DNA from: a virus
Length of the DNA stretch: 43,215 bases
IMG/VR virus record: IMGVR_UViG_3300027899_000026
Location: 1-43,215 of that record
Direction: 5' to 3' (one strand)
The notes under the pieces: generated by a model
Seen by the model: the letters and a program-made list of their open reading frames with translations, nothing else
Told to the model about the DNA's origin: nothing
The model's database searches: none
Shown: positions 22,179-29,041 of the stretch, piece after piece
How the letters are laid out: every line of letters starts with the position of its first letter
Numbering within the stretch: position 1 is the first letter of the stretch
Program-made: the position numbers and the translations under genes

Positions 22179-22969
22179 GCATTCTAAACCGCCACATTAA
22201 CTTCGACATGCCAGCCGAGAAGTATCACGCCGTTGATGCTCTCTCCAAGTCGATGATGTCCAAGATCCTGAAGTCGCCAGCGCACTACAAGGCAGCGTTG
22301 GAGGAGCATCAGGAGCCGACTAAGGCGATGCAGATGGGTACGGCGATTCATACCGCTGTTCTCGAACCGCACCTGTACTCGCAGGTCGTAGCGGTCGTTC
22401 CGCCTGACATCGACGGTCGTACGAAGGAAGGTAAGGCGTGGAAGGAAGCGCACAAGTCGCGCATTCATCTGACCCATGCCGAGGACATCGACATCCAGGG
22501 TGTTTCGAACAGCGTTCGTCGCCATCCGTTCTGGGACATCATTCATCTGGCCCACAAGATCGAAGCGAGCGTGTTTGCTGAGGATGCTGAGACTGGCATC
22601 TCTCTCAAGGCGCGTCCTGATCTGTGGGTCGAGGATCATACGCTTGTCGATGTGAAGACTACGGATGACGCGACTCCTGAAGGGTTTAGCCGGACCGTAA
22701 CAAGTTTTGGCTACCACATTCAGGCCGCGCATTATCTTGCGATGACCGAGGCTGAGAACTTCATCTTCGTCGCCGTCGAACGCAAAGCTCCGTATGCAAT
22801 CGGCATCTACAAGCTAGATGCAGAGTGGCTTCAGGCGGGTGAGAACCTTCGCAGGAAGGCAATCTCAACGCTGCACGAGTGTCGCGCACTGGACAGTTGG
22901 CCAGCCTATCCGACTGCTACACAAACACTTTCATGCCCAAAATGGGTGCTGAATAAATCCGAGAGTTGA
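22175..22969 (+). CDS. RecE-like exonuclease (PD-(D/E)XK)
   Basis: 264 residues. The order LSKSMMSKILKSPAHYKAAL, MQMGTAIHTAVLEP, ISLKARPDLWVEDHTLVDVK, TTDDATPEGF and GYHIQAAHYLAM is the exodeoxyribonuclease VIII/PDDEXK-12 signature: metal ligands Asp and the E/D-x-K pair in VDVKTT, and a Gln-Tyr type helix. It digests one strand of duplex DNA to create substrate for RecT. ATGA overlap with RecT shows they are made together. Confidence 0.85.
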   Translation: MSILNRHINFDMPAEKYHAVDALSKSMMSKILKSPAHYKAALEEHQEPTKAMQMGTAIHTAVLEPHLYSQVVAVVPPDIDGRTKEGKAWKEAHKSRIHLTHAEDIDIQGVSNSVRRHPFWDIIHLAHKIEASVFAEDAETGISLKARPDLWVEDHTLVDVKTTDDATPEGFSRTVTSFGYHIQAAHYLAMTEAENFIFVAVERKAPYAIGIYKLDAEWLQAGENLRRKAISTLHECRALDSWPAYPTATQTLSCPKWVLNKSES

Positions 22970-23492: not shown

Positions 23493-24140
23493 ATGAGAGT
23501 CAAACTTGTAGCTATCACCAAACCCCTTGTCGGCGACGGTAACATGACCGCATCCGACTTCATCACGTTCGCAGCGCGTGTCAGCAATCCGAGCAATCAG
23601 ATGAGCTTGCTCACCGCTCCGAAGTTACTGGCCTACTGCATCAAGAACGGCCATTGGAGTATCTTCGAGCAGGCCAGCATGACGGTCGAGATTCAGACCA
23701 GCCGAGCGATATCCGCACAGATCATTCGCCATCGCAGTTTTTGCTTCCAAGAATTTTCACAAAGATATGCGCCAAGCGATGCGCCGGAGCCGGTTGAACT
23801 TCGCAGTCAGGATCGAGTGAATCGCCAGGGAAGCGGTGATTCATTTGAGAAGGACTGGGCATACGATGTGGTTGCCAAGTCTGTTAATCTGGCATTTACA
23901 ACCTATCGAACATTGCTTCAAGAGGGTGTTAGTCGGGAGACAGCGCGAATGGTTCTGCCGCTCTGTACGCAGACCACGCTCTACATGACCGGCAACATTC
24001 GCTCATGGATTCACTATCTTGAGCAGCGTTGCGCGAAGGGTACGCAGAAGGAACACCGGCAGATCGCCGAGGCTATCCGCGACACGATCTTCGCTGTCGA
24101 GTTCCCGCACATTCACAACGCATTGCAGGAGGCCAAATGA
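23493..24140 (+). CDS. thyX: Flavin-dependent thymidylate synthase
   Basis: Makes dTMP from dUMP using FAD and methylene-tetrahydrofolate. The family signature is intact: RHRSFCFQEFSQRY around residues 79-92, with further conserved parts YCIKNGHWSIFEQASMTVEI and VSRETARMVLPL. The 215-residue length is normal. In phages it boosts thymidine supply for replication, in line with the recombination genes upstream. The 3' end runs into the next gene by an ATGA junction with GGAGG upstream. Confidence 0.92.
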   Translation: MRVKLVAITKPLVGDGNMTASDFITFAARVSNPSNQMSLLTAPKLLAYCIKNGHWSIFEQASMTVEIQTSRAISAQIIRHRSFCFQEFSQRYAPSDAPEPVELRSQDRVNRQGSGDSFEKDWAYDVVAKSVNLAFTTYRTLLQEGVSRETARMVLPLCTQTTLYMTGNIRSWIHYLEQRCAKGTQKEHRQIAEAIRDTIFAVEFPHIHNALQEAK

Positions 24141-24337
24141 GCGAGCAAAACAAATCAGAGACTGTACGACTAACATTTAAGGGATTGCTGTCCATCTATC
24201 TACCAGAAGCGAAAATGATGGAGGTCTACAACGCAACCGAGCTGTGCTGCCGCAGGAACAACTGGGGCATCGCAATCGACGAGAGCAACCGATTGGATTT
24301 TGTTCCGATGGTGAGAGTCGAGGAGGACAAGCCGTGA
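24137..24337 (+). CDS. Array gene 1: unknown small protein
   Basis: 66 residues (VRLTFKGLLSIYLPEAKMME). No motif. Starts on an ATGA junction after thyX. First of a run of about 14 short genes separated by nearly the same stop/start sequence. Its end reads EEDKP. Confidence 0.55.
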   Translation: MSEQNKSETVRLTFKGLLSIYLPEAKMMEVYNATELCCRRNNWGIAIDESNRLDFVPMVRVEEDKP

Positions 24338-24624
24338 GCGATTTGATATTAAATCCAGAATGGGAACACGCACAGTTTGTGTCTATTTCTGAATTGAGAG
24401 AATGCGAACGGAAACTGGAGGTGCTTAACCGTGGCAACGCCAATGCCGAGCGAATCCTTTGCGAGGCTGCTGGCGTCGAATCCGGGCGCGATGTCCTCGA
24501 CTGGATCGTGGCGGCGAAAGACCACATCAAGCGGCTGGAGGAGGCGGGGGATGAAGCAATCTACCCTCTTGAATATGCGGCCAGAGTGAGAATTTGGACA
24601 GAAGCCAAGGAGGCCAAGCTGTGA
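24334..24624 (+). CDS. Array gene 2: coiled-coil protein
   Basis: 96 residues from GTG 24334, with ELRECERKLEVLNRGNANAE and VAAKDHIKRLEEAGDE. The IKRLEE helix recurs in other genes of the array. Start chosen because the GTGAGC junction follows AGGAGG by about 7 nt. Function unknown. Confidence 0.55.
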   Translation: MSDLILNPEWEHAQFVSISELRECERKLEVLNRGNANAERILCEAAGVESGRDVLDWIVAAKDHIKRLEEAGDEAIYPLEYAARVRIWTEAKEAKL

Positions 24625-24836
24625 GCCAATCAATCAACGACGGAGGACCGGCGTTTCCTCACGAAACATCACTTGGATATCACCACGGCATGACCCTCCG
24701 CGACTACTTTGCGGCGGCAGCGTTGCAGGGATTGATGGCAAAAGTAGATCCAGAAGATCATTGGGCGGATTATCGCGCAAAATGGTCATATGAAGCAGCC
24801 GACGCGATGCTCAAAGCGAGGGAGGACAAGCCGTGA
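24621..24836 (+). CDS. Array gene 3: GMTLRDYFAAAALQG-type phage protein
   Basis: 71 residues from GTG 24621. INDGGPAFP and GMTLRDYFAAAALQGLM are the signature of a very common phage accessory family without known function. Starts and ends on the array junction motif. Confidence 0.7.
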   Translation: MSQSINDGGPAFPHETSLGYHHGMTLRDYFAAAALQGLMAKVDPEDHWADYRAKWSYEAADAMLKAREDKP

Positions 24837-25036
24837 GCAGTCAATTCACCATCGCCGACCGCGAGTTGGTCAAGATCGCCTCAACTGGATCTGTCTGGGT
24901 GCAGCACGACATCACTCCACTGGAAGTGGCTAAGATTGTAAAACTTATGAGTCAGCGAATCGAAAAGCTAGAGCAGGAGAACGACGCAATGAGAGCCGAT
25001 CTGCTGCTGTGGAACGAGAAGGAGGTGAAGCCGTGA
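24833..25036 (+). CDS. Array gene 4: coiled-coil protein
   Basis: 67 residues from GTG 24833. The C-terminal half (RIEKLEQENDAMRADLLLWN) is nearly repeated at the end of the 25248 gene, both at protein and DNA level. The N-terminal part is unrelated. A domain shuffled between array genes is likely. Confidence 0.6.
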   Translation: MSSQFTIADRELVKIASTGSVWVQHDITPLEVAKIVKLMSQRIEKLEQENDAMRADLLLWNEKEVKP

Positions 25037-25251
25037 GTGACAAGCAGTGGTTCATCACGCCACACAGCGACATAGAATGGTTGATAATGCCGTGTATGGT
25101 CTTGGTGGCGTTTGCTTGTTTGATTTCAAACCTTGTTGGATTAACCACTGGAAATGAACAAATAAGACACGAAGCGGTTGCCTCTGGCCACGCCGAATGG
25201 GTGGCCGACAAGAGCGGTAAACCACAATTCAAATGGAAGGAGTGCAAATGA
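25033..25251 (+). CDS. Array gene 5: membrane protein
   Basis: 72 residues from GTG 25033. One clear hydrophobic span (WLIMPCMVLVAFACLISNLV) followed by a soluble part. Single-span membrane protein of unknown role. Confidence 0.55.
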   Translation: MSDKQWFITPHSDIEWLIMPCMVLVAFACLISNLVGLTTGNEQIRHEAVASGHAEWVADKSGKPQFKWKECK

Positions 25252-25559
25252 ACAACAACTTACTACTTAATTCAACCGATCTAGGTGTCGGAAAACAAAT
25301 GGAACCAAACATGATCGAATGGAGAAAGTGCGGCAAAGCAATCCTAACGATCCACGCCGATGGACTCATCACCGTGTCGGAAGATTGCAAACCTACTGAG
25401 ACAGCGGCTGAGGTGCTACGCATCATGCGCGATCAATGGCTGGCCGACATACAGTGCGCCAAGATCCGCGAGCTTCAAGAGCGCATCACTCAACTAGAGT
25501 CAGAGAACGACGCTCTTCGCGCCGATCTGCTGCTGTGGAATGAGAAGGAGGCCAAATGA
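25248..25559 (+). CDS. Array gene 6: coiled-coil protein
   Basis: 103 residues from ATG 25248. N-terminal part with ILTIHADGLITVSEDCKPTE, then a heptad helix (ELQERITQLESENDALRADL) almost identical to that of gene 24833. The shared tail includes the SD of the next gene. Confidence 0.6.
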   Translation: MNNNLLLNSTDLGVGKQMEPNMIEWRKCGKAILTIHADGLITVSEDCKPTETAAEVLRIMRDQWLADIQCAKIRELQERITQLESENDALRADLLLWNEKEAK

Positions 25560-25903
25560 ATATCGAACAAACCAAGGAAGCCATCCGCGTGATGCAGGCA
25601 TTCGTGGATGGGAAGGAAGTGGAACATCGGTATAACGGAAAGTGGGTAAAGATTTATGTACCGAGGTGGGACTGGGATGACACAGACTACCGCATCAAAC
25701 CCAACCCAACATTCCGCCCGTGGACCTCCGATGAGGTGCCTGTTGGTGGTCAAATTAGGAATAAGGCAATCTCTGAATACCGTTGGTTGATTGACCGGAC
25801 AGCCGATCTAACCGTCCGAAATGAGTGGTTAGAAAGACACGAACACAGCATCGACGGCGGTAAAACATGGCACCCGTGCGGGGTGATGGAGGAGTGCAAA
25901 TGA
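25556..25903 (+). CDS. Array gene 7: phage protein with DYRIKP motif
   Basis: 115 residues. KEAIRVMQAFVDGKEVEHRY, DTDYRIKPNPTFRPWTSDEV and PVGGQIRN form the signature of a widespread phage family, often called hypothetical. Function unknown. Ends ECK, with SD-like GGAGTGCAA before the next ATG. Confidence 0.65.
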   Translation: MNIEQTKEAIRVMQAFVDGKEVEHRYNGKWVKIYVPRWDWDDTDYRIKPNPTFRPWTSDEVPVGGQIRNKAISEYRWLIDRTADLTVRNEWLERHEHSIDGGKTWHPCGVMEECK

Positions 25904-26190
25904 ACGATCATATTCCTGACCTCACGAAAATGATCGGTGAGACGCCGAGGACGGATGCGGCGTGGAAACCTGATGGAGGAGATGGCTATCCAACCGTAGA
26001 TGTTGACTTAGCTCGTCAACTCGAACGCGAACTCAACGCGGCCCATGAGCGCATCAAGCGGATGGAGGAGGCGCTGACCTGGTACGAATCCACAGTGTCC
26101 GACTGCAATCGCCACGGACCTAAAGGTGATGTTGCTCGCGATGAGTTGGCAAAAGATCAAGGGCGCAAAGCCAAGGAGGCCAAGCCGTGA
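25900..26190 (+). CDS. Array gene 8: TPRTDAA-type coiled-coil protein
   Basis: 96 residues from ATG 25900. ETPRTDAAW and ARQLERELNAAHERIKRMEE are typical of a common phage protein type with an LERELNAA...IKRLEE helix. Paralogous to array gene 9. Function unknown. Confidence 0.65.
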   Translation: MNDHIPDLTKMIGETPRTDAAWKPDGGDGYPTVDVDLARQLERELNAAHERIKRMEEALTWYESTVSDCNRHGPKGDVARDELAKDQGRKAKEAKP

Positions 26191-26495
26191 ACCATATTGG
26201 TAACGCCAACAAAAAGGTCAGCGATACGCCCATATCTGATTCTACTCCTCACAACGTAGGCGAACTCGGTATGCTGTGCAGGAAACTCGAACGCGAACTA
26301 AACGCTGCCAATGAGCGAATCAAGCGGCTGGAGGAGGAGCTGGAGCGGACCAAGCAGGATCGGAACGCGATTGCTAAGAACACCCGCGAGCCGCTGCTGT
26401 TGAAGCTCGATCATGCCGCCGAGCGCATCAATCGGCTGGAGGAGTTGTTGTGGTTAAGTCAGCCAGTTTGCGAAGCCAAGGAGGCCAAGCCGTGA
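26187..26495 (+). CDS. Array gene 9: paralogue of array gene 8
   Basis: 102 residues from GTG 26187. Shares KLERELNAANERIKRLEEEL with gene 25900 and has a second coiled-coil (HAAERINRLEELLW). Starts and ends on the conserved junction. Confidence 0.6.
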   Translation: MNHIGNANKKVSDTPISDSTPHNVGELGMLCRKLERELNAANERIKRLEEELERTKQDRNAIAKNTREPLLLKLDHAAERINRLEELLWLSQPVCEAKEAKP

Positions 26496-26746
26496 GCGAT
26501 GAAATTATCCGCACATGCCCAAATACAAAATGCAGGACATGTTGCATAAAAGAATATAATTACACACCAGGATACAATATGGACATAGGTGAAATCGTTC
26601 CGCAGGAATGTCCCGCTTGTGGTGCTTGGCTCGGTCAAAAGTATTGGGGTAACATTGATCGAATTAGCAAAATGAAAGAGCCAAGCCAATCACATAAAGA
26701 ACATTGGGCTAGAGGACTTGGCTTAACCAAGGAGGAAAAGCCGTGA
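26492..26746 (+). CDS. Array gene 10: zinc-ribbon protein
   Basis: 84 residues from GTG 26492. CPNTKCRTCC and CPACGAW provide four or more Cys ligands, a compact zinc ribbon. Slightly AT-rich compared with neighbours. Function unknown. Confidence 0.55.
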   Translation: MSDEIIRTCPNTKCRTCCIKEYNYTPGYNMDIGEIVPQECPACGAWLGQKYWGNIDRISKMKEPSQSHKEHWARGLGLTKEEKP

Positions 26747-26934
26747 GCGATCAAAATAAATATCCATTGACCCCATCTTGGTATGCATTTGGTGGTTTTT
26801 TTACAACACCAGTCCTTGCTACGACACTGCTTTTAGGGGCTGTGATTTTGTTTGCAGTTTGGCCATTTACGCCAATGATTTTTTATCTAAAAAGGAAAAG
26901 TGAATTACAACAAAACAAGGAGGTGAAGCTGTGA
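26743..26934 (+). CDS. Array gene 11: small membrane protein
   Basis: 63 residues from GTG 26743. A long apolar stretch (TPVLATTLLLGAVILFAVWP) and a basic end KRKSELQQNKEVK. Single- or double-span inner-membrane protein; unknown role. AT-rich. Confidence 0.55.
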   Translation: MSDQNKYPLTPSWYAFGGFFTTPVLATTLLLGAVILFAVWPFTPMIFYLKRKSELQQNKEVKL

Positions 26935-27218
26935 CACTCGAAGAAATAATTATAGAGGAATCGCACAATTTAAGTTTTCCGCACGGAAGGAATCTACGCT
27001 CAATAGCATTTCATGTCCGCAAGCTGGAGGATTGGGCGAAGCAACTAGAGAATGAGAACGACACCTTTAAGAAACGCATCAAGCGGCTGGAGAAGGCTCT
27101 TGAGTCCATTCGAGAATACTGGAACCGAGACAACAATGAGGGAGCGATGAATGACGCTTGCTGGCACGCAATCAACACAGCGTCAGAAGCACTGGAAGCC
27201 AAGGAGGCCAAGCTATGA
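26931..27218 (+). CDS. Array gene 12: coiled-coil protein
   Basis: 95 residues from GTG 26931, with the recurring heptad helix (LENENDTFKKRIKRLEKALE). The N-terminal part (MTLEEIIIEESHNLSFPHGR) is unique. Function unknown. Confidence 0.55.
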   Translation: MTLEEIIIEESHNLSFPHGRNLRSIAFHVRKLEDWAKQLENENDTFKKRIKRLEKALESIREYWNRDNNEGAMNDACWHAINTASEALEAKEAKL

Positions 27219-27499
27219 GACTCAACGATTCCCAGCGCAAGCTCAAGCTCATCACCAACAGCATTTCCACTGTTTGGAAGGGAAAGCGCGAATGCCCGAT
27301 CTGCATCCACACCACCGTTTGGAGCATTGGAACCATCGTTGAGGCCCGAGAGTTCAACGAAGGTAATCACTGTCCCGGTGCTGCAATTACTCCGCTGATC
27401 CAAGTTCAGTGCAACAACTGTGGGTACACCGTGTTGTTCAACGCCATCGCTCTCGGCGTCGTTGACCAATCAACTGGAAAGCTAAAGGAGGAGGAATGA
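27215..27499 (+). CDS. Array gene 13: zinc-ribbon protein
   Basis: 94 residues from ATG 27215. CPICIHTTVW and CNNCGYTVLF are two CxxC pairs of a zinc ribbon, preceded by a helical KLKLITNSISTVWKGKRE. Ends KEEE, again over an SD. Confidence 0.6.
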   Translation: MRLNDSQRKLKLITNSISTVWKGKRECPICIHTTVWSIGTIVEAREFNEGNHCPGAAITPLIQVQCNNCGYTVLFNAIALGVVDQSTGKLKEEE

Positions 27500-27693
27500 A
27501 TGCAGCATTCATCTACAAACACACAATGGCCGGCGAAGTGCTGATTGTGGATATGGAACGAGCGAAGCAACTGGACGCAGCAAGTGGACATTGGAAACTC
27601 ATCCACTCGGTCAATGCGGTCGAGACGCTCGCATTCATTGTGTCACTAACGCCAAAGCAGAGAAACAAGTACATCAAACAACTTACGAAGTGA
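27496..27693 (+). CDS. Array gene 14: unknown small protein
   Basis: 65 residues (MNAAFIYKHTMAGEVLIVDM ... LTPKQRNKYIKQLTK). No motif. The last gene whose start carries the array junction. Confidence 0.5.
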   Translation: MNAAFIYKHTMAGEVLIVDMERAKQLDAASGHWKLIHSVNAVETLAFIVSLTPKQRNKYIKQLTK

Positions 27694-27695
27694 AT

Positions 27696-27881
27696 ATGAA
27701 ACCTAAACGCAAGACTACGGTAATCACAATCGACTCAACACTTCACACCGAGCTGCGCGCTATTTGCGACAAGCACGGAGTAAAGATCGGATTTCTCGCT
27801 GATCAAGCGGTGAGAGAGCTACTGGCAAAGTTGAACAATACTGCTCAAGTAAGTACATCTTTGTCAGCTTTCACTCGCTAA
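27696..27881 (+). CDS. Ribbon-helix-helix (CopG/Arc-like) regulator
   Basis: 61 residues from ATG 27696. A beta strand TTVITIDSTLHTELRAIC, then KHGVKIGFLADQAVRELLAK, fits a small ribbon-helix-helix DNA binder. It probably autoregulates or controls early genes. The 80-bp gap behind it has two stem-loops that could be its operator or a leader for the helicase gene. Confidence 0.6.
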   Translation: MKPKRKTTVITIDSTLHTELRAICDKHGVKIGFLADQAVRELLAKLNNTAQVSTSLSAFTR

Positions 27882-27961: not shown

Positions 27962-29041
27962 ATGAATCTGAGAGAATACCAAAAGAAAGCAGTAGAGTGG
28001 GCCAAAACTAGCGATGGCCTGATCATATCACCCGCAGGAAGTGGCAAGACATGGATTGCCGCGAGCATCATCAAGCATTACGCAACGCTGAATCCAGATT
28101 GGACGTTTGGATGGACAGCACCGACTAGGGAAACCTGTCAGCAAGCTAGAGTGTCTCTTCGCGTTGCTGGTGTGCTTGAAAGCGTCGTCGATGTCCGGTG
28201 TCCGCATGAGTCAGTGGACTTCAGCAAGAAACAGCTTCTTGTAATCGACGAAGCAAAGCATAGCCCTGCTCGCGTCCTGAAAGGCATCATAGAGTCGTGT
28301 AACGGCATGCGTTATGGCTTCGATGCCACGCCGTGGTGCGATGATCCAGAGCGTAACGCGGTGACTAAGATGCTGTTCCGCAATCGCGCCTACGAAATCA
28401 ATCGCAGCGACATTGGTGATTCATTGGCCGACGCTTACCTCGAAGTCAGCGATGCCACCGATCTGAACATCAAGCAAAAGATCGATGACAACATCGACCG
28501 TCTCTTCAATGCGCGGCGTCGCTACATGCGGATAAGTGACGAAGAATTGAAGCGCATGTGTGCATGGGAATCGCTCGTTGAAATTGGCATCTGCGAGAAT
28601 CGTGAACGCAATGAGTCGGCCATCCAATACGCACTGGAACACGGCGACATGCAGACGCTCATCCTCATCCCACGCATCACTCTCGGAGAGCAGTACGAGA
28701 AGCGCATTCCAAACTCTCGGCTCGTTCATTCCAAGATCGGCAAGAAGCAGCGCAAGGAAGCGATGGAAGAATTCAAGTCTGGCAAGCTGCGGACCATGAT
28801 TGCCACATCATTGGCCGACGAAGGGTTGGATCTTCCGAATGTTGAACTGCTCATCATGGTGAGCGGCGGAAGGTCGTCGCAGAAGACGATTCAGCGAGCG
28901 AGTCGAGCGTTACGCAAAACAGAAACCAAAAACTGTGCGACAATCATGGACTTCTCTGACAAGTTCCATCCCATCGGAGCGTACCATTCGAAAAAGCGGA
29001 TGGCATGCTACCGAGAGCTAGGTTGCGTATTTTTACAATGA
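27962..29041 (+). CDS. SF2 DNA helicase with DEAK box
   Basis: 359 residues. Motif I ISPAGSGKT (residues 22-30), motif II DEAKH (96-100), motif III-like DATP (121-124), motif V around MIATSLADEGLDLPN and motif VI TIQRASRALR. The architecture is UvsW/RecG-like single helicase, useful for branch migration or replication restart. Motif II is DEAK rather than DEAD/DEAH and motif VI has QRASR in place of QRxGR; both may alter ATP coupling. Neighbours are SSB and a RuvC-like resolvase. The stop overlaps the SSB start. Confidence 0.85.
   Translation: MNLREYQKKAVEWAKTSDGLIISPAGSGKTWIAASIIKHYATLNPDWTFGWTAPTRETCQQARVSLRVAGVLESVVDVRCPHESVDFSKKQLLVIDEAKHSPARVLKGIIESCNGMRYGFDATPWCDDPERNAVTKMLFRNRAYEINRSDIGDSLADAYLEVSDATDLNIKQKIDDNIDRLFNARRRYMRISDEELKRMCAWESLVEIGICENRERNESAIQYALEHGDMQTLILIPRITLGEQYEKRIPNSRLVHSKIGKKQRKEAMEEFKSGKLRTMIATSLADEGLDLPNVELLIMVSGGRSSQKTIQRASRALRKTETKNCATIMDFSDKFHPIGAYHSKKRMACYRELGCVFLQ

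Follow-up and report, generated by a model that had tools for sequence, protein, structure and literature searches.

Short sequences at gene borders have been proposed, for lambdoid phages, as sites of homologous recombination that generate mosaic genomes (Susskind & Botstein 1978; Clark et al. 2001, on HK620; both as cited in PMC3029335). Whether phage mosaics originate from such short shared sequences or from illegitimate recombination followed by selection is still debated (PMC3945230), and most mosaic borders carry no recognisable sequence (PMC3029335). In the mycobacteriophages Brujita and Island3, genes 67 and 68 have a common 3' end of 60 bp (PMC3029335). The cluster K mycobacteriophages carry start-associated sequences (SAS) with the 13-bp consensus GGGATAGGAGCCC, lying 3–7 bp ahead of starts, in many cases where the intergenic gap exceeds 50 bp, and with inverted repeats at about half of the sites; these were interpreted as a feature of translation starts, with no link to gene exchange (PMC3203893). 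The locus considered here is an array of small genes in the IMG/VR virus record IMGVR_UViG_3300027899_000026, analysed over its whole length of 43,215 bases (hereafter the window), in which most of the genes are connected by one repeated stop/start sequence (hereafter the joint). It is probable that this array serves a phage lineage as a dock for accessory genes, with uniform, register-keeping joints at which whole genes are exchanged and a second, intragenic joint for gene halves. The joint itself, the variable gene content, the clustering of breakpoints, the keeping of register and the sharing of whole cassettes are directly visible in the window and its relatives, all of the latter being metagenome contigs.

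A repeated stop/start joint in the small-gene array

Fifteen small genes run in one direction between ThyX (23493–24140; PF02511, E = 4.4e-48) as left anchor and a superfamily II-type helicase (27962–29041) as right anchor, each starting 4 nt before the end of the preceding gene; every gene and joint of the array, as well as the two anchors, lies on the + strand, and array genes are named below by their start positions. A sequence-only reading had placed 14 of these starts on one near-identical junction. All 14 are present and overlap the preceding stop by 4 nt as RTGA, but the cassette is near-identical at just nine of them. The consensus, AAGGAGGCCAAGCC followed by RTGA, is approached at genes 24334 (24320–24339, GAGGAGGACAAGCCGTGAGC, two mismatches to the 20-mer AAGGAGGCCAAGCCGTGAGC, which is also the reference for the counts that follow), 24621 (24607–24626, one mismatch), 24833 (24819–24838, two), 25033 (25019–25038, three), 26187 (26173–26192, one), 26743 (26729–26748, two), 26931 (26917–26936, AAGGAGGTGAAGCTGTGACA) and 27215 (27201–27220, three), and is exact at gene 26492 (26478–26497). 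With up to three mismatches allowed, the 20-mer AAGGAGGCCAAGCCGTGAGC has eight matches in the window, against 0.01 expected in shuffled sequence, and AAGGAGGCCAAGCC followed by RTGA has nine; in both cases every match is on the + strand and inside the array. A minor type of junction, found between ThyX and gene 24137 (24123–24142, GGAGGCCAAATGAGC) and before genes 25248 (25234–25253, GGAGTGCAAATGA), 25556 (25542–25561) and 25900 (25886–25905), keeps the Shine-Dalgarno sequence (SD) and the AA but reads GGAGGCCAAATGA or GGAGTGCAAATGA, a shorter ATG form. The junction before gene 27496 (27482–27501, AAAGGAGGAGGAATGA) has the SD alone in common with the others, and the gene at the right-hand edge of the array, an Arc-like ribbon-helix-helix gene of family c1 (27690–27881), has the -4 register at its start but no SD.

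Because the small genes end in GAG GCC AAG CCG TGA or a close form, their last codons carry the SD and their stop overlaps the next start. The joint is therefore coding sequence, and the upstream proteins end in EAKP, EAKL, EDKP, EVKP, ECK or EAK, much as the sequence-only reading had described. Many positions of the joint's border are variable; the SD positions are its best-conserved part, and spacer bases that are dispensable for SD pairing are conserved too. The idea that all overlaps in this phage look alike was rejected, as the other scored -4 overlaps of the window, outside the array, depart from AAGGAGGCCAAGCC at no fewer than 7 of 14 positions. When loci were pooled, 81 of 235 distinct array overlaps (35 arrays) fell within two mismatches of AAGGAGGCCAAGCC, against 10 of 199 overlaps between long genes, and some of those 10 may lie in arrays that have no anchor assignment; the motif is thus not equally strong before non-array genes. 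Outside the array, a minor-type, SD-bearing -4 overlap occurs at 20712–20731 (caggaggagtcgaaATGA), before gene 20726. A side group of nine relatives (loci L025, L026, L030, L032, L053, L056, L067, L069 and L073) is set apart by its joint (AAGGAATCCAAGCCATGA) and by a right half that varies little and reads c8-c6-c5-c1 in most of them.

Gene content, breakpoints and register among relatives

With the helicase and ThyX as queries, 144 distinct loci were recovered from IMG/VR viral contigs, and both anchors are present in 35 distinct arrays. Between the anchors of these 35 stand 3–15 genes, spanning 666–3824 bp; the -4 register is found at 262 of 327 array starts, and gene families appear and disappear around a loose order. 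The gene content between junctions, which had been singled out for comparison, is accordingly highly variable and not fixed. The flanking intervals are mostly constant (14–33 bp for exo-ssb, -26 to 11 bp for helicase-ssb2), with a few outliers in recT-exo and ssb-ThyX. Contigs also tend to end at the array: those with ThyX end within 3 kb on the array side (downstream) in 40 of 61 cases, against 15 upstream, and of 58 with the helicase, 30 end within the same distance on the array side and 13 on the other. Such breakage would be expected of a population with many array versions, and repeats alone hinder assembly too. The contig closest to the window (3300005805_000166, loci L008 and L075; 100% identity in ThyX, 99% in the helicase) ends 88 bp past ThyX and begins again within the helicase gene; its breaks coincide with the two array edges, as would be seen if that sample held a different array version.

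The ends of blocks of DNA homology concentrate at the junctions, with 490 of 1288 left ends and 524 of 1028 right ends located there, approximately 3.6 and 4.7 times the uniform expectation. After collapse into 257 site families, 98 lie at junctions versus 38.5 expected (standard deviation 5.9, maximum 57 in 500 random sets), about 2.5 times chance, so that the breakpoints do fall where a shared junction had led one to look for them. Differences by whole cassettes, also anticipated from the sequence alone, are seen in individual pairs. Between loci L010 and L144, identity is 99.2% to the left and 94.9% to the right of a switch that lies inside the SD of one joint; L010 is without four genes of L144 and resumes, in frame, with what stands four genes later in L144, and the unequal identities suggest that two phages exchanged DNA and not that the genes were simply deleted. 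The window and L191 share positions 26474–26748 (264 of 275 identical, 96%), a block that carries the whole of gene 26492, has its left and right borders in the joints of genes 26492 and 26743, and is flanked by unrelated sequence on both sides. L191 has no ThyX or helicase match and its other genes are weakly similar to those of the window; a separate search for a third copy of this block found none. A further junction-to-junction block, at 25018–25251 with gene 25033, is 90% identical to L303 and is bordered by the joints of genes 25033 and 25248.

The register is kept when genes meet new neighbours. Upstream neighbours of more than one kind occur in 46 gene families, and of the 119 heterologous combinations that these provide, 112 have the exact -4 register, which elsewhere in the window is found in 11 of 31 listed gene pairs. 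In an independent set, selected by the gene of family c9 alone (gene 25033 in the window, 25033–25251, encoding a membrane span), the upstream overlap is -4 in 58 of 61 cases with 22 kinds of neighbour, and the downstream overlap is -4 in 62 of 62 with 19 kinds. Gene 27215 (27215–27499; zinc-ribbon-like, family c12) has 10 kinds of downstream neighbour among the relatives. Joint bases -7 to -1 are part of the upstream gene but move with the gene downstream (69% identity versus 44% when permuted; 0 of 500 permutations). At bases -14 to -10, too, identity is higher where the downstream gene is shared (68% versus 54%), by which the fine position of the switch within the joint is blurred. Together, the keeping of register and the travelling bases point beyond selection for whole genes. 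On the 92.5-kb contig 3300021962_000056 (L378, L379) the c9 membrane gene occurs twice, at a distance of about 47 kb, which may mean that this genome has two arrays.

A second repeated sequence lies within array genes: the coiled-coil joint ATCAAGCGGCTGGAGGAG, which encodes IKRLEE and is found at 24526–24541 in gene 24334 (ATCAAGCGGCTGGAGG), 26053–26068 in gene 25900, 26319–26334 and again 26427–26442 in gene 26187, and 27078–27093 in gene 26931. The module that extends from this repeat to the junction in gene 24334 (105–119 bp) recurs in many other contigs at approximately 90–95% identity, behind different front halves; the blocks shared with L096 and L115 start at 27075; and between L016 and L120 a 251-bp stretch, which runs from the coiled-coil joint up to a junction, is 99.6% identical where the other shared parts of their arrays are 82–86% identical. 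The coiled-coil joint holds 31 of the 257 breakpoint families versus 11.9 expected (standard deviation 3.3, maximum 27). The repeat acts as a second breakpoint site, with gene halves swapped across it. The array products had been taken to be unrelated, and on this point the sequence-only reading was mistaken: six of them (starts 24334, 24833, 25248, 25900, 26187 and 26931) form one single-linkage group of coiled-coil proteins with common pieces, their halves exchanged at this intragenic repeat. Of the remaining products, that of gene 26492 (26492–26746) has cysteine pairs and is zinc-ribbon-like by eye, and that of gene 24621 (24621–24836; family c2) resembles the C-terminal part of PHROG 2201. 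Family c2 matches only that part of the 226 positions of PHROG 2201, as though a free-standing gene had arisen from a domain, or a domain from such a gene. For the majority of the array genes Pfam and PHROGs assigned no function; the proteins of the array may be accessory or host-interaction factors.

In a search for hosts, no relatives of the helicase were found among 84,980 bacterial and archaeal genomes. The exact 20-mer gave six hits in genomes; the coiled-coil joint is missing from all of them and junction-like sites number just one or two in each, which makes these hits most likely due to chance. A DNA search of INPHARED returned matches only to ThyX-type stretches and short chance pieces. 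The nearest isolate by helicase is Verrucomicrobia phage P8625 (33% identity), a weak hint at a verrucomicrobial host; the interval before its helicase contains one small unrelated gene and no array.

A model of exchange at the joints and its rivals

The data allow a model of how such a dock may work. Any gene ending in the joint could be placed after any other and would be translated by coupling. Since most positions have the joint in almost identical form, up to 18–23 bp of identity is available for a crossover, which may take place between two phages or between two positions within one phage, and the outcome would be whole genes inserted, deleted or swapped in exact -4 register; the repeated joint in the coiled-coil genes would have the same role for gene halves. 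The crossovers may be catalysed, through annealing or strand exchange, by the phage's RecT-like annealing protein (21309–22178, + strand, start approximate; PHROG 561, E = 2e-23) and a PD-(D/E)XK nuclease of the DUF3799 type (22175–22969, + strand; PF12684, E = 2e-28) as its proposed exonuclease partner. Both genes, together with a short gene labelled ssb by position only, lie upstream of ThyX, and RecT is present in 81 and the nuclease in 82 of 83 testable ThyX loci. Exact in-register identity among the joints of the window reaches 23 bp, between those of genes 26187 and 26492, with 8 of 91 pairs at 16 bp or more, 2 at 20 bp or more and one at 23; across arrays, 244 of 28,271 heterologous joint pairs have at least 23 bp. 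These lengths lie at or under the minimal efficient pairing segment reported for Red beta, 23–27 bp (PMC3945230); RecET reportedly joins sequences of 5–13 bp at low frequency (PMC2327257). If the phage population is large, even infrequent exchange would be enough.

Several points weigh against this model. Roughly half of the breakpoint families, 122 out of 257, fall outside both joints, and the block counts are phylogenetically non-independent, shared descent having been handled solely by the collapsing of similar sites. Because most joint pairs fall below 23–27 bp, exchange would be inefficient unless flanking similarity helps. Further, conservation of the joint can reflect selection for translation, and part of the travelling of bases -7 to -1 could stem from translational demands specific to each downstream gene. 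A more far-reaching version is offered tentatively, as one that we find possible and do not favour: the joint could be a dual-purpose code shaped by two demands, coupling for any gene order and a near-universal recombination address, which, with the coiled-coil joint, would give a phage population a common pool of accessory genes, whole or in halves, under constant reshuffling by the phages' annealing recombinase. If true, this would amount to an integron-like effect without an integrase.

A doubtful alternative puts translation first and gives the repeat no role in recombination. According to this account, selection for tight coupling of tiny genes keeps the joint, illegitimate recombination occurs anywhere, and only recombinants with intact genes survive. 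Whole-gene selection by itself would put breakpoints near borders, and illegitimate exchange near gene borders is a standard account of many mosaic boundaries (PMC3029335); however, random cut-and-paste would not readily give the exact register seen in 112 of 119 new combinations, and exchange occurs within genes as well, at a second repeated sequence. The strong conservation of the SD positions is what such an account would predict, but the non-SD spacer bases are also conserved and move with the downstream gene, and most other overlaps of the same phage are without this joint.

Very little probability is given to the possibility that assemblers fused pieces of different phages at the repeated joint, so that the mosaic arrays are carried by no virus. 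The word sizes usual in such metagenome assemblies exceed 18–23 bp, the extent of the joint, which argues against fusion there, even though contigs do break in or near the array more than elsewhere and a chimera formed at the joint would retain the register. Identical arrays recur in different metagenome records in at least four cases (L079/L080, L137/L138, L032/L055 and L053/L074), some of which may sample one site, and the array is near-identical in L108 and L111. Substitutions separate the shared blocks, as in evolved copies, and chimeric assembly at the joints is unlikely. An integron-like, site-specific system with a recombinase that recognises the joint would also line up small genes as cassettes that have their border in common, but was rejected as highly improbable, since neither a tyrosine integrase (PF00589) nor a serine resolvase was found in the record, which may be incomplete, nor an inverted repeat (attC-like) at the junctions, and since the border is variable at many positions and gene halves move too.

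The array beside described phage and cassette systems

As with the boundary sequences of lambdoid phages, short sequences at gene borders are here proposed as recombination sites; in the array, the border sequence is conserved between phages, and content differs with breakpoints located there. Several neighbouring genes in the nin region of lambda overlap as ATGA, resembling the RTGA overlaps of the array. However, the borders from ren to Q in lambda are mutually unlike, with a longest in-register identity of 10 bp, whereas the junctions of the window share up to 23 bp, and the array differs from lambda in having one joint at most positions of one genome and a second joint inside genes. With such a recurrent joint, genes can be connected in any combination. 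In Brujita and Island3 a gene was likewise gained or lost via recombination between the shared 3' ends of neighbours, although as a single event at a longer repeat, where in the window more than ten genes stand in an array and share one stop/start joint. The SAS of cluster K resemble the joint as a repeated motif with an SD core, placed before many non-structural genes of different families and conserved beyond the needs of 16S rRNA pairing. The joint, however, has the consensus AAGGAGGCCAAGCC followed by RTGA and not GGGATAGGAGCCC, and is without inverted repeats. Integron cassettes similarly form a growing and shrinking array of exchangeable small genes, but no integrase or attC-like site was found here and the joints are coding sequence.

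The near-identity of the joint at most borders, together with dozens of relatives, makes the question of how mosaics arise directly testable by a plasmid or phage cross, in which the separate intragenic joint provides an internal control. The joint is also a simple marker for hypervariable accessory-gene regions in viral metagenomes. The sequence-only reading had likened the array to a modular gene dock and knew of no description of one; in the open-licence papers, no account was found of such uniform, repeated stop/start joints or of small-gene arrays driven by microhomology, but the boundary-sequence idea and the SAS are already published. Recombination of phage modules at short border sequences is an old idea; what is new in this array is the uniformity of the joint, its coding nature, which keeps any gene order translatable, and the presence of a second joint within genes.

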